Assembly: GCA_002715265.1 (NCBI GenBank)
Contig: PAYS01000007.1
Coordinates: forward strand, 21,878-61,407
Direction of reading: 5' to 3'
Length of the DNA: 39,530 nt
Source of the DNA: Candidatus Pelagibacterales bacterium
GTDB lineage: Bacteria > Pseudomonadota > Alphaproteobacteria > TMED109
Both the position numbers and the translations under genes were made by a program. The first letter of the stretch is position 1, and each line of letters starts with the position of its first letter. The notes beneath the pieces are model-generated. The model saw only the letters and a program-made list of their open reading frames with translations. It ran no database searches and had not been told where the DNA came from. Below, piece by piece: positions 15,951 through 29,866 of this stretch.

Positions 15951-17174
15951 ATGTCTGGACCATTAACGGGTATTAAGGTAATTGATTTTACAAGGGTTTT
16001 AGCGGGGCCTCATTTTACAAAAATGCTTTCAGATATGGGAGCTGATGTTATAAAAATTGAGCACCCAGAAACAGGTGATTTGGCTAGGATGGGAGCCCCA
16101 ATTAGCGGTAATTTTTCTCACTACTTTGTACAGCAAAATGCTGGAAAAAAATGTATCTCTTTAGATTTAAATAAACCTGAAGGAAGAGATATAGTTAAAA
16201 AGTTATGTAGAGATGCAGATATAATCGCTGAAAATTTTAGACCAGGAACTTTATCTGCTTTTGATTTAGATTATAAAAACATTAAACTATTTAATAAAAA
16301 AGTAGTTTATGTATCCATAAGTGGTTATGGACAACTTGGGCCGTTAAGAGGTCGTGCGGCTTTTGCACCTACTGTTCATGCTGAATGTGGAACAGCTCAT
16401 ACTAAATTTAAACACGTTGGTACAGACTTAAATGACTTTAATAATATGCAAAGTGATTTTTCACATGCAGATGTTTATACAGGTTTAGAGGCGGCTGTTT
16501 CTTGTTTAGCGGCTTTGCATAATGCTGCTAAAACAGGATTGGGGCAACATATAGACGTATCTTTAGCAGCTACAATGATTGCGGTTAATGAAAGAGCACA
16601 TGCGGAGTTAGCTGGAATGGATGATAGGGAGGATGAGCCATATGCTTTATCAGCACCTGATTCCCCATATATAAAACTTTCAACTGGAGATATAGCAGTG
16701 ATTGCAGCCAGCCCAATTTTAGGAGTTGTTTTTTTACGTTATGCCAGAATGATGAGACGTTTAGATTTAATAGAAAACCCTTTATTTAAAACTGCCAAAT
16801 TACGACGAAAAAATTATAAACTTTTGATGAAAGAAGTAAATGATTGGGCTTCAACTTTTAGAACTATTGAGGACTTAGAGGCACAAGTAGGAGAGGTGGG
16901 CTTAGCAGTCGGTAAATTAAATAGTATGAAGGAGTTTGCCGAAGGAGAATGGGGTACACATTGGGAAGCGATAAGAAATATTGAAGATGGAGAAGGAGGT
17001 ACTATTAAAATACCTGGGTTACCATGGAAATTTTCTAAAACTAAATGTAAACCTGGTAATCATATGGCCACTAGAGGCATGGATAATAAAAATATATTAA
17101 AGGAACTAGGATATACGAAAAAAGAAATAGATGATTTTTACAAAAAAGAAGTAATAGCAGAAGGAATATTTTAA
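15951..17174 (+). CDS. Class III CoA-transferase (CaiB/BaiF family)
   Basis: The N-terminal half has IKVIDFTRVLAGPHFTKMLSDMGADVIKIE (8-37), NAGKKCISLDL and AENFRPGT (93-100), all CaiB/BaiF hallmarks. The catalytic aspartate that forms the acyl anhydride is D174 in HADVYTG. The length of 407 is normal. The enzyme swaps CoA between two organic acids without ATP. Gaps of 2 bp on each side, to the enoyl-CoA hydratase and to the SDR, show a tight operon. It probably activates the acid that the hydratase then acts on, which is inference from order alone. Confidence 0.93.
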   Translation: MSGPLTGIKVIDFTRVLAGPHFTKMLSDMGADVIKIEHPETGDLARMGAPISGNFSHYFVQQNAGKKCISLDLNKPEGRDIVKKLCRDADIIAENFRPGTLSAFDLDYKNIKLFNKKVVYVSISGYGQLGPLRGRAAFAPTVHAECGTAHTKFKHVGTDLNDFNNMQSDFSHADVYTGLEAAVSCLAALHNAAKTGLGQHIDVSLAATMIAVNERAHAELAGMDDREDEPYALSAPDSPYIKLSTGDIAVIAASPILGVVFLRYARMMRRLDLIENPLFKTAKLRRKNYKLLMKEVNDWASTFRTIEDLEAQVGEVGLAVGKLNSMKEFAEGEWGTHWEAIRNIEDGEGGTIKIPGLPWKFSKTKCKPGNHMATRGMDNKNILKELGYTKKEIDDFYKKEVIAEGIF

Positions 17175-25268: not shown

Positions 25269-25991
25269 ATGAAAAAAAGTTTAGTTTTGATAAAAGAAAT
25301 TGAAAAAGGAATTTTATCAATAGAAATAAATAATGCTGAAAAAAGAAATGCTCTATCAGATAGTTTAAAAATTGAGCTAGAAAATATTGCATTAGATTTG
25401 AGAGATAATACGGACATTCAAATAGTGATACTCTCAGGTTCTGATGGTAATTTTTCATCTGGAAATGATATAAAAGAAAAAAATGCTTTTGGATTAGGTT
25501 TAGATTTAGCTGAAGCAAGGATACATAATAGATTAGGATTGCGCATGTGTAATGCATGGACCAACATACCACAGATTTCTATAGCTTCTATAGAGGGAGC
25601 TTGTATAGGAGGTGGTGTGAGTTTAGCTTTATCTTGTGATTTCAGATATTGTTCAAAAGATTCTTATTTTTATGCCCCAGAAGTAGATTTAGGTATACCT
25701 TATGCTTGGGGAACTTTACCCAAGTTATTATCAATAGTCGGACCAGTAAAAGCTAAGTTAATTGGTTTAGCATGTAAAAAATTATTTTCTGAAGAAATTT
25801 TAGAATGGGGTTTGTGTGAACATGTTTCTGATGATCCTTTTAATAATGCAATTCATTTTGCAAAAGAGTTGATAAAAAGACCTAAAATACCTCAACAAAT
25901 GGTGAAAGAATCAATAAATAGGTTAGTTGGTAAGGATGAAATTTCTATATATGAACAAGATCAAGTTTTATTAACTACTAGAGAGAAGTAA
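25269..25991 (+). CDS. Enoyl-CoA hydratase/isomerase family protein (one classical Glu missing)
   Basis: This crotonase-family protein of 240 residues has the oxyanion-hole segment NFSSGNDI (61-68) and IEGACIGGGVSLALSCDFRYCS (108-129). At the first hydratase glutamate it has S118; the second is kept at E138 (APEVDLG). One retained glutamate fits an isomerase or a specialised hydratase better than a general beta-oxidation hydratase. It is the third gene of the unit with the fatty acid hydroxylase and the small membrane protein, with a 2 bp gap. A strong promoter for the cold-shock gene starts immediately after its stop codon. Confidence 0.87.
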   Translation: MKKSLVLIKEIEKGILSIEINNAEKRNALSDSLKIELENIALDLRDNTDIQIVILSGSDGNFSSGNDIKEKNAFGLGLDLAEARIHNRLGLRMCNAWTNIPQISIASIEGACIGGGVSLALSCDFRYCSKDSYFYAPEVDLGIPYAWGTLPKLLSIVGPVKAKLIGLACKKLFSEEILEWGLCEHVSDDPFNNAIHFAKELIKRPKIPQQMVKESINRLVGKDEISIYEQDQVLLTTREK

Positions 25992-25997
25992 GAAAAT

Positions 25998-26026
25998 TTG
26001 CCAGAATAGTCTATTTAATGTATAGT
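25998..26026 (+). promoter_or_regulatory. Sigma-70-type promoter of the cold-shock gene
   Basis: TTGCCA at 25998-26003 (5 of 6 to consensus) and TATAGT at 26021-26026 (5 of 6) are separated by exactly 17 bp. It lies just after the stop of the upstream gene at 25991. Transcription would start near 26033, giving an untranslated leader of about 150 bases, similar in length to the leader of E. coli cspA. This is the best promoter match in the window. Confidence 0.65.
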
Positions 26027-26032
26027 CTGTAA

Positions 26033-26182
26033 GCGGTTTTAGTTGGTTAGCTGGAACCTGGCCGCGCTACTATTGAAGTTTTTAAAAGACTGCTATGTAG
26101 ATGTAAAAGGAGTTTTTAACCAGACGAATGTAAGAATTTACAATTTGGATCTCCTGAATTTATAAAGATAAGGAAATATAAT
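26033..26182 (+). ncRNA. Structured 5' leader of the cold-shock mRNA, possible thermosensor or riboswitch-like element
   Basis: The leader has a GC-rich patch at about 26051-26070 (GGAACCTGGCCGCGC), striking in this AT-rich genome. Downstream is a nested set of complementary segments: AGGAG (26108-26112) with CTCCT (26151-26155), CCA (26120-26122) with TGG (26146-26148), and TGTAA (26129-26133) with TTACA (26138-26142) around a GAAT loop. The same TCCT (26152-26155) could instead pair with the ribosome binding site AGGA at 26171-26174. This gives two exclusive folds, one freeing and one covering the site. The role is inferred from E. coli cspA; I do not match it to a known RNA family. Confidence 0.45.
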
Positions 26183-26395
26183 ATGCCAGTAGGTGTTGTA
26201 AAGTGGTTTAATCCGAAAAAAGGGTATGGTTTCATTAGTCCTGAAGATGGGGGAGATAAGGATGCTTTTGTTCATATCACAGCCGTTCAAGGTGCTGGAC
26301 TTGATACTTTAAATGAAGGAGATAAAGTAGAATATGAGTTAGTTGAAGGCCAGAATGGAAAATCTTCAGCAGATAACTTAAAAATAGTTACTTAA
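26183..26395 (+). CDS. cspA: Cold-shock protein, CspA family
   Basis: This is a 70-residue cold-shock-domain protein that binds single-stranded RNA and DNA and acts as an RNA chaperone. The RNP1 motif KGYGFI (13-18) and RNP2-like DAFVH (27-31) are intact, and [17 protein letters not shown] is the canonical start. A strong promoter at 25998-26026, a leader of about 150 bases, AAGGA at 26170-26174 upstream of the ATG and a hairpin terminator downstream make it a free-standing unit. The leader suggests post-transcriptional control by temperature or by Csp itself. Confidence 0.96.
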
Positions 26396-26408
26396 ATACA
26401 CTTTTATA

Positions 26409-26436
26409 GATCAGGACTAATTTGTTAGTCCTGATC
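26409..26436. terminator. Hairpin terminator after the cold-shock gene, shared with the EamA gene
   Basis: GATCAGGACTAA (26409-26420) and TTAGTCCTGATC (26425-26436) form a perfect 12 bp stem with a TTTG loop. On the + strand a T run follows after 15 bases, so the U tract is not immediate. The hairpin lies between the stop of the cold-shock gene (26395) and the stop of the convergent EamA gene (26437), so it can serve both strands. It is the only clear intrinsic terminator I see in the window. Confidence 0.75.
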
Positions 26437-27300
26437 TTAATTAACATTTTTTTTAATTAATATAAATGCTCCTGTCATAATCATAATACTTCCTACAATA
26501 ATATTAGTACTTAATGATTCATTATAAAGATACCATCCTACTACATATATTAAGGGTAATCGCAAATAGTCTATTGGCAGAACTAAAGAAGGTTCTCCAG
26601 CTCTTAGTGCACTTGTTAAACAAAAATGAGCGCCTAAAGCTGATAGGGCGAGTAATATTATTAAGGGTAATTCGTTGAATATATTAAATTGAATTTTTCC
26701 TAATAGTAGTGAGCCTATTATAGTAAAAGGTAATTGTATTAAAGACATCCAAAATATTACAGATATTGTATTGTCAGTTTTAGTTAAAATTTTTGTATAA
26801 TTATGTGCAAATGCATAGAAAATTGCTGATATTAAAACAATAATACAGTTTGCATCTATAGTATTTGTGTCGGGTACTACAATAACCCAAGTTCCTATCA
26901 TTCCTAATGTAAGAAATATGAATTTAAATACTGTTAGTTTATCTTTAAAAATAACTATTGCAATTATTGTTGCCCATATAGGCATTGTAAATTCTATAGA
27001 AAATACTGTTGCTAACGGTAAAACTGTTAATCCATATGTCCAACCAGATTGCCCGATAAAATGAAAGAAGTTTCTAATTAAATTATTTTTAAATTGTTTA
27101 GTTGAAATTTTAATATTATTTTTAAAAATATAAAATAACATTATTATTAGAATACATAAAATATTTCTAAAATTTTGAATTTCGAAAGAATTATATTTAA
27201 ATGAGAGTTCTTTAATAGTTACTCCCATTAAACAAAAGCATATAATGGTTCCTATCATCCAAAATATGCCTTTTAAATTATTTTTTTTTATTTCATCCAT
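26437..27300 (-). CDS. EamA/RhaT-type drug/metabolite transporter (DMT superfamily)
   Basis: This 287-residue polytopic protein has about ten hydrophobic spans in two EamA repeats. The start KGIFWMIGTIICFCLMGVTIKELS and the pattern ..RNILCILIIMLFYIF.. followed by SIEFTMPIWATIIAIVIFKDK are typical of the 10-TMS DMT family. It probably exports a metabolite or amino acid; the substrate cannot be read. A lone gene, convergent with the cold-shock gene and sharing its hairpin terminator, and divergent from the DUF1499 gene. It has an AT-rich upstream region with no promoter I can defend. Confidence 0.87.
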   Translation of the reverse strand: MDEIKKNNLKGIFWMIGTIICFCLMGVTIKELSFKYNSFEIQNFRNILCILIIMLFYIFKNNIKISTKQFKNNLIRNFFHFIGQSGWTYGLTVLPLATVFSIEFTMPIWATIIAIVIFKDKLTVFKFIFLTLGMIGTWVIVVPDTNTIDANCIIVLISAIFYAFAHNYTKILTKTDNTISVIFWMSLIQLPFTIIGSLLLGKIQFNIFNELPLIILLALSALGAHFCLTSALRAGEPSLVLPIDYLRLPLIYVVGWYLYNESLSTNIIVGSIMIMTGAFILIKKNVN

Positions 27301-29791: not shown

Positions 29792-29866
29792 GGGCGATTA
29801 ACTCAGGGGTAGAGTGTCTCGGTGACATCGAGGAAGCCATTGGTTCAAATCCAATATCGCCCACCA
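29792..29866 (+). tRNA. tRNA-Val (anticodon GAC)
   Basis: A full cloverleaf of 75 bases: acceptor GGGCGAT paired with ATCGCCC; D stem ACTC/GAGT with loop AGGGGTA; anticodon stem TCTCG/CGAGG (one G-U pair) with loop GTGACAT, so the anticodon is GAC; variable region AAGCC; T stem ATTGG/CCAAT with loop TTCAAAT; discriminator A and encoded CCA. GAC reads valine codons GUC and GUU. The pentapeptide-repeat gene starts 21 bases after it, so both may lie on one transcript. Confidence 0.95.

Follow-up and report, generated by a model that had tools for sequence, protein, structure and literature searches.

A conserved structured leader RNA with a candidate CTCC pairing switch upstream of the cold-shock gene csp in MarineAlpha9/TMED109-type marine Alphaproteobacteria

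The window, which here means the whole stretch of DNA analysed, comprises 39,530 nt of contig PAYS01000007.1 in assembly GCA_002715265.1 (Candidatus Pelagibacterales bacterium, TMED109). Its csp gene, encoding a cold-shock protein, is preceded by a leader region whose other flank is an enoyl-CoA hydratase/isomerase gene (ech), and ech also adjoins the leader and csp in the relatives where this was checked. The features of the locus are listed in Table 1. A search with the Csp protein returned this gene as the sole match in its own genome (assembly about 89% complete), and the matches in relatives indicated that the clade apparently has one csp per genome. Since a terminator-like stem lies 3' of csp, and an analogous stem of different sequence lies 3' of csp in each relative, the gene is most likely monocistronic. 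The only Rfam match at the gathering score in the whole window was a tRNA gene at 29792-29863 (+). Two observations were made on csp genes of related assemblies. In G003, csp was apparently split across contig ends, with the leader and the first 57 nt on C46 and the gene on C30 (L104, L128, L002); an assembly break probably divides a single gene here. In G018, a GC-rich relative, three cold-shock-domain matches were found within one 298-aa reading frame (contig 13, about 16143-16889; L127, L130), possibly a triple-CSD protein.

Table 1 Features of the csp locus (positions in the window)
Feature	Position	Strand	Description
Enoyl-CoA hydratase/isomerase gene (ech)	25269-25991		PF00378; flanks the leader on the side opposite to csp
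Putative promoter	25998-26026	+	-35 TTGCCA 25998-26003, 17-nt spacer, -10 TATAGT 26021-26026; 10/12 consensus match; kept in relatives
Predicted transcription start	26032-26033	+	Just 5' of the conserved GCGG, 6-7 nt after the -10; from sequence
5'-terminal stem-loop	26033-26065	+	GCGG 26033-26036 with CCGC 26062-26065, 26037-26043 with 26050-26056; z -1.85, p 0.038 (column shuffle)
First middle hairpin, followed by U tract	26066-26083	+	3 compensatory pairs, among them a U-A to C-G change in L025; well formed in relatives, imperfect in the window
Second middle hairpin	26088-26102	+	CTGC..GTAG in the window, CTAC..GTAG in g4; 91.7% of cells paired, one compensatory pair
Most conserved block	26108-26155	+	GGAG 26109-26112 with CTCC 26151-26154, around hairpin TGTA 26129-26132:TACA 26139-26142; z -2.84, p 0.008 (column shuffle)
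Anti-Shine-Dalgarno CTCCT	26151-26155	+	Can pair with GGAG 26109-26112 or, via TCC(T), with the Shine-Dalgarno sequence 26171-26174
Shine-Dalgarno sequence AAGGAA of csp	26170-26175	+	Invariant in all relatives; 7 nt to ATG 26183
csp, 70-aa cold-shock protein	26183-26395	+	PF00313 (CSD), E 3.7e-23
Terminator-like stem of csp	26408-26437	+	13-bp stem AGATCAGGACTAA/TTAGTCCTGATCT, TTTG loop, then AT-rich stretch

The initial annotation, made from the window sequence alone, had proposed a near-consensus promoter and a leader of about 150 bases. The match of this promoter to the consensus is itself unremarkable, as matches of this quality were no rarer than in shuffled sequence (6 found, 6.5 expected), and the proposal holds through its conservation: the positions of the -35 and -10 and their 17-nt spacing recur in all relatives, while the surrounding bases differ. 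The distance from the -10 to the GCGG motif is likewise near-constant in all relatives, and in the alignment the conserved RNA element starts at the equivalent of 26032-26033 in every one of them. Since promoter positions, spacing and GCGG distance are all kept, transcription probably starts near 26032-26033, which would give a leader of about 150 nt as first suggested. A start downstream of 26108, named at the outset as incompatible with the proposed structure, is unlikely as far as the conserved promoter shows.

Six relatives carry the leader in front of csp (five from genus g4, one from g3; five distinct sequences), and all belong to the same family (MarineAlpha9/TMED109-type); public records that carry it include Alphaproteobacteria bacterium TMED109, MarineAlpha9_Bin1 and Candidatus Pelagibacterales SP299. 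After removal of an identical copy, the leader alignment contained six distinct sequences including that of the window, four of them closely alike. Outside the three genera the leader was found neither by DNA searches nor by the model built here (R1), and R1 detected no homologous leader above noise outside the family among 385 alphaproteobacterial genomes, where strict filters were applied and the best few candidates per genome were considered, so that weak distant homologs could escape. The csp genes in the family's other genera carry unrelated leaders, and no viral contigs with the conserved block were found. Several relatives gave matches at query positions 103-127 of the leader; the examined loci (L008, L013) proved to be a chance match inside a short-chain-dehydrogenase-like gene. 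In g7, a GC-rich genus of the same family (L109, L110, L123), the csp leaders are alike among themselves and unlike the window leader, and they contain a CTTCC able to pair with a GGAAG Shine-Dalgarno sequence.

Conservation along the leader is uneven. The block at 26108-26155 is 85-88% identical to g4 and 73% identical to g3, with no indels, and the 5' domain is 72-77% identical between the window and g4 (70-77% to relatives for the 5'-terminal stem-loop), while the middle of the leader falls to 54-60% between the window and g4. For comparison, identity at 4-fold degenerate sites in csp and ech was 29-46%. The leader, and above all the block adjoining the ribosome binding site, is therefore strongly constrained. 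Protein coding in the leader was rejected, as no frame is conserved across the alignment (sequences read by eye). By these comparisons the leader is real and under purifying selection.

Folded as a single sequence, the window leader was no more stable than its shuffles (z -0.40), and the same was found for the hairpin 26108-26155 (z -0.73). The consensus fold of the six leaders, on the other hand, beat column-shuffled alignments with z -3.27 (p 0.004; second run -3.50), and eight sets of control alignments from csp and ech, taken on both strands, ranged from z +1.39 to -2.08. The reverse complement of the leader gave z -3.49, so the fold test cannot identify the strand; this is given by the promoter and the gene. 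In the consensus structure 95.5% of cells are paired and six pairs are compensatory, against 1.4 +- 1.0 in shuffles (reached in 1 of 500). When the partners were slid out of register, pairing fell to 38-47%, a control that is somewhat biased in favour of the structure, since this alignment had also yielded it. Most of the compensatory pairs lie in the middle hairpins (26066-26079 and 26088-26102), the second of which is paired despite a sequence identity of only 35-60% across genera. One more, a U-A/A-U exchange, lies in the 5'-terminal stem-loop, whose 3' strand carries a conserved CTGG(A/G), and one lies low in the hairpin 26123-26150. Two alternative folds of the 5' domain (P1 with GGTC:GGCC, or a single long hairpin) are both possible, and covariation favours neither. 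The GC-rich patch at about 26051-26070, which had been noted as a conserved-looking element, is the 3' half of the conserved 5'-terminal stem-loop. With compensatory changes and an alignment fold beyond that of shuffles, the leader is, on comparative sequence grounds, a structured cis-regulatory RNA. The initial proposal that the cold-shock leader is structured and has a promoter of its own thus agrees with the alignment fold, the compensatory pairs and the conserved promoter spacing.

The same proposal had placed two competing folds around the ribosome binding site. All its motifs were found exactly where they had been placed: AGGAG (26108-26112), CCA (26120-26122) and TGTAA (26129-26133), their nested partners CTCCT (26151-26155), TGG (26146-26148) and TTACA (26138-26142), and TCCT (26152-26155) with its alternative partner AGGA (26171-26174). 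The particular nested fold found no support in the comparison with relatives. Its outermost A:T pair is present only in the window, and no relative has an intact CCA:TGG helix, whose middle pair forms only in the window. The stems of the nested fold contain no compensatory change, an outcome that had been named at the outset as refuting the proposal, although the leader does show covariation elsewhere. In g4 the central hairpin instead gains a GTCGAA:TTTGAT helix, which stacks immediately on GGAG:CTCC. What is kept in all six leaders is both partners of CTCC, and to this extent the idea of two competing folds stands. GGAG:CTCC and TGTA:TACA are invariant across the six leaders and show no covariation; since they are invariant, covariation neither backs nor refutes the switch stems. 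On the other side, three base pairs between TCC and the GGA of the Shine-Dalgarno sequence are invariant in 6/6 leaders, and the fourth is lost in L025. A further alternative state is available, in which CC(A) pairs with (T)GG of TGGAG (all three pairs in four of the six leaders, the two inner pairs in all six).

Such complementarity is not rare in random sequence. A TCCT anti-Shine-Dalgarno was present in 20% of shuffled window leaders, and in 2.9% it was accompanied by a 5-bp Watson-Crick competitor; with G-U pairs allowed, an anti-Shine-Dalgarno plus 5-bp competitor occurred in 95%. Among column-shuffled alignments, 5.3% had a conserved Watson-Crick anti-Shine-Dalgarno together with a conserved 4-bp competitor. 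The double pairing of CTCC therefore exceeds chance only marginally by these counts, and the two-fold switch logic read from the sequence is suggestive.

The folding model was then considered over temperature and transcript length. For the full window leader, the predicted probability of GGAG:CTCC was 0.40-0.46 and that of Shine-Dalgarno pairing 0.52-0.59 at all temperatures from 5 to 37 C. Shine-Dalgarno pairing usually prevailed in the full leaders of relatives, GGAG:CTCC being predicted at only 0.00-0.21 in g4 and g3 leaders at 37 C. In the isolated 3' domain, two local folds lay at most 3.3 kcal/mol apart in 6/6 leaders, and the fold with the free ribosome binding site gained slightly with heat in five of them; a cold-on switch would behave the other way round. 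As a control, the same method was applied to the leader of E. coli cspA, which has been demonstrated to be a thermosensor and has alternative folds that hide or expose the ribosome binding site (PMC9947658); its Shine-Dalgarno sequence likewise showed no cold-induced exposure. Because the method misses this thermosensor, the temperature folding is weak evidence in either direction. With respect to transcript length, GGAG:CTCC in the window transcript was predicted at about 0.99 for lengths that end before the Shine-Dalgarno sequence and at about 0.4-0.5 for those that include the start region; such early formation in shorter transcripts was inconsistent among relatives.

Our preferred reading is that a monocistronic csp mRNA carries 26032-26182 as its 5' untranslated leader and that this lineage-specific leader may control translation through a CTCC switch, with Csp autoregulation, alone or together with temperature, as its most likely input; for all of this jointly, we put the probability at roughly 0.45. 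The 5'-terminal stem-loop and the two middle hairpins would precede the conserved switch segment and could act as a folding scaffold, as protection of the 5' end or as landing sites for Csp. The AAGGA ribosome binding site would be free while CTCC (26151-26154) is paired with GGAG (26109-26112) in a helix that stacks on the TGTA/TACA hairpin; translation would be lowered when CTCC pairs with the ribosome binding site instead. The signal read by the switch would most likely be the state of the RNA-chaperone pool. Since there is one csp per genome, we infer that homeostatic autoregulation is favoured over a dedicated cold-only gene, and as an input it seems at least as likely as temperature alone. 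Remodelling of its own leader by Csp has been proposed in E. coli (cited in PMC8155936). A more specific form of this reading, which we consider doubtful, is a class of csp leader confined to the MarineAlpha9 type, in which the 48-nt module GGAG...TGTA/TACA...CTCC would be a three-way switch (GGAG:CTCC, GG:CC(A), CTCC:Shine-Dalgarno) set by the Csp level. If true, an oligotroph with a single csp would hold its RNA-chaperone activity constant across natural ocean temperatures.

A strict RNA thermosensor, in which, as in E. coli cspA, cooling by itself would change the fold and uncover the ribosome binding site without the help of a protein, was the logic first proposed for this leader. The gene family and the architecture are in line with it, csp thermosensors or thermoswitches having been reported (PMC9947658, PMC8155936) or proposed (PMC3738593) in other bacteria, and so are the near-isoenergetic alternative folds around the ribosome binding site. 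However, the modelled pairing barely changes between 5 and 37 C and cooling tips the local balance to the closed fold in 5/6 leaders, both weak objections given the behaviour of the same method on E. coli cspA. We regard a purely thermal switch as rather unlikely. A leader that serves the stability and processing of the mRNA is a somewhat poorer candidate: the main task of its hairpins would be to keep RNases away from a short, abundant mRNA, with the complementarity among CTCC, GGAG and the Shine-Dalgarno sequence being incidental. The structure does start exactly at the predicted 5' end, the covarying pairs belong to the middle hairpins and the 5' stem-loop more than to the surroundings of the ribosome binding site, and anti-Shine-Dalgarno complementarity easily arises by chance; yet plain stabilising hairpins would not need the block nearest the ribosome binding site to be the most conserved part (85-88%), as it is.

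Two further mechanisms were considered for parts of the leader. Csp proteins are known as an antiterminator family, and the first middle hairpin with its U tract could be a weak intrinsic terminator through which Csp lets RNA polymerase pass. A hairpin followed by U4-U7 is present in all leaders, with the three compensatory pairs, and the L025 leader scores as terminator-like by rule, but in g4 the stem contains only about two G-C pairs, in the window it is imperfect, and no terminator was called in the window or L022 leader, which makes attenuation very improbable. Still harder to credit is an upstream reading frame in which AGGAG (26108-26112) would serve as Shine-Dalgarno sequence for a start-stop ATG-TAA (26128-26133), ribosome binding there controlling csp. 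An invariant ATGTA lies exactly 15 nt after GGAG in 6/6 leaders and reads ATG-TAA in the window, L002 and L025; this distance, however, exceeds the normal spacing between Shine-Dalgarno sequence and ATG, and the frame is not conserved, since L021, L022 and L026 read ATG TAT GAA ... for about nine residues.

Compared with known systems, the leader resembles that of E. coli cspA (RF01766) in being a long structured csp leader (about 150-160 nt) with an ordinary promoter close upstream and alternative folds, candidate ones in the window leader, at the ribosome binding site (PMC9947658). It lies directly upstream of a CSD gene with a conserved promoter in front, the location expected for RF01766, but differs in having no sequence or covariance match to the E. 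coli leader, which R1 in turn does not detect. RF01766 gave no match in the window at its gathering score (78 bits) and exceeded this cut-off in 0/28 family genomes; its best match in the own genome (8.7 bits, E 6.68) covers only model positions 245-317 and lies inside the csp coding region. Rfam searches at permissive thresholds returned nothing credible in the leader region. The leader falls outside Rfam cspA. In the Alphaproteobacteria, the Agrobacterium tumefaciens cspA 5' UTR (C1_109596F) is similar in being transcribed at the head of a short monocistronic csp mRNA and has been proposed as a thermosensor (PMC3738593); by its description it is set apart, being 227 nt long and a reported Rfam cspA homolog. 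Besides E. coli (PMC9947658), csp thermosensors or thermoswitches are reported for Listeria cspA and Staphylococcus aureus cspB/cspC (cited in PMC8155936). By the description given there, these are csp mRNAs with alternative structures controlling translation, in a different phylum.

The window leader apparently has not been described before. It is a csp leader RNA specific to one lineage of uncultured marine Alphaproteobacteria and has no detectable relation to the E. coli element, which suggests that csp genes acquire RNA control repeatedly. RNA control of cold-shock genes is already well known, and to this the leader adds one lineage-specific example. It also offers a simple system with a single csp for asking whether csp leaders read temperature directly or the supply of Csp.

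A separate observation concerns the Rfam cspA model, which spans both leader and gene. In the marine Rhodospirillaceae MAG RS434, a csp (L028, about 1386-1667) matches this model at 37 bits, below the cut-off, and may carry a structured leader of its own.
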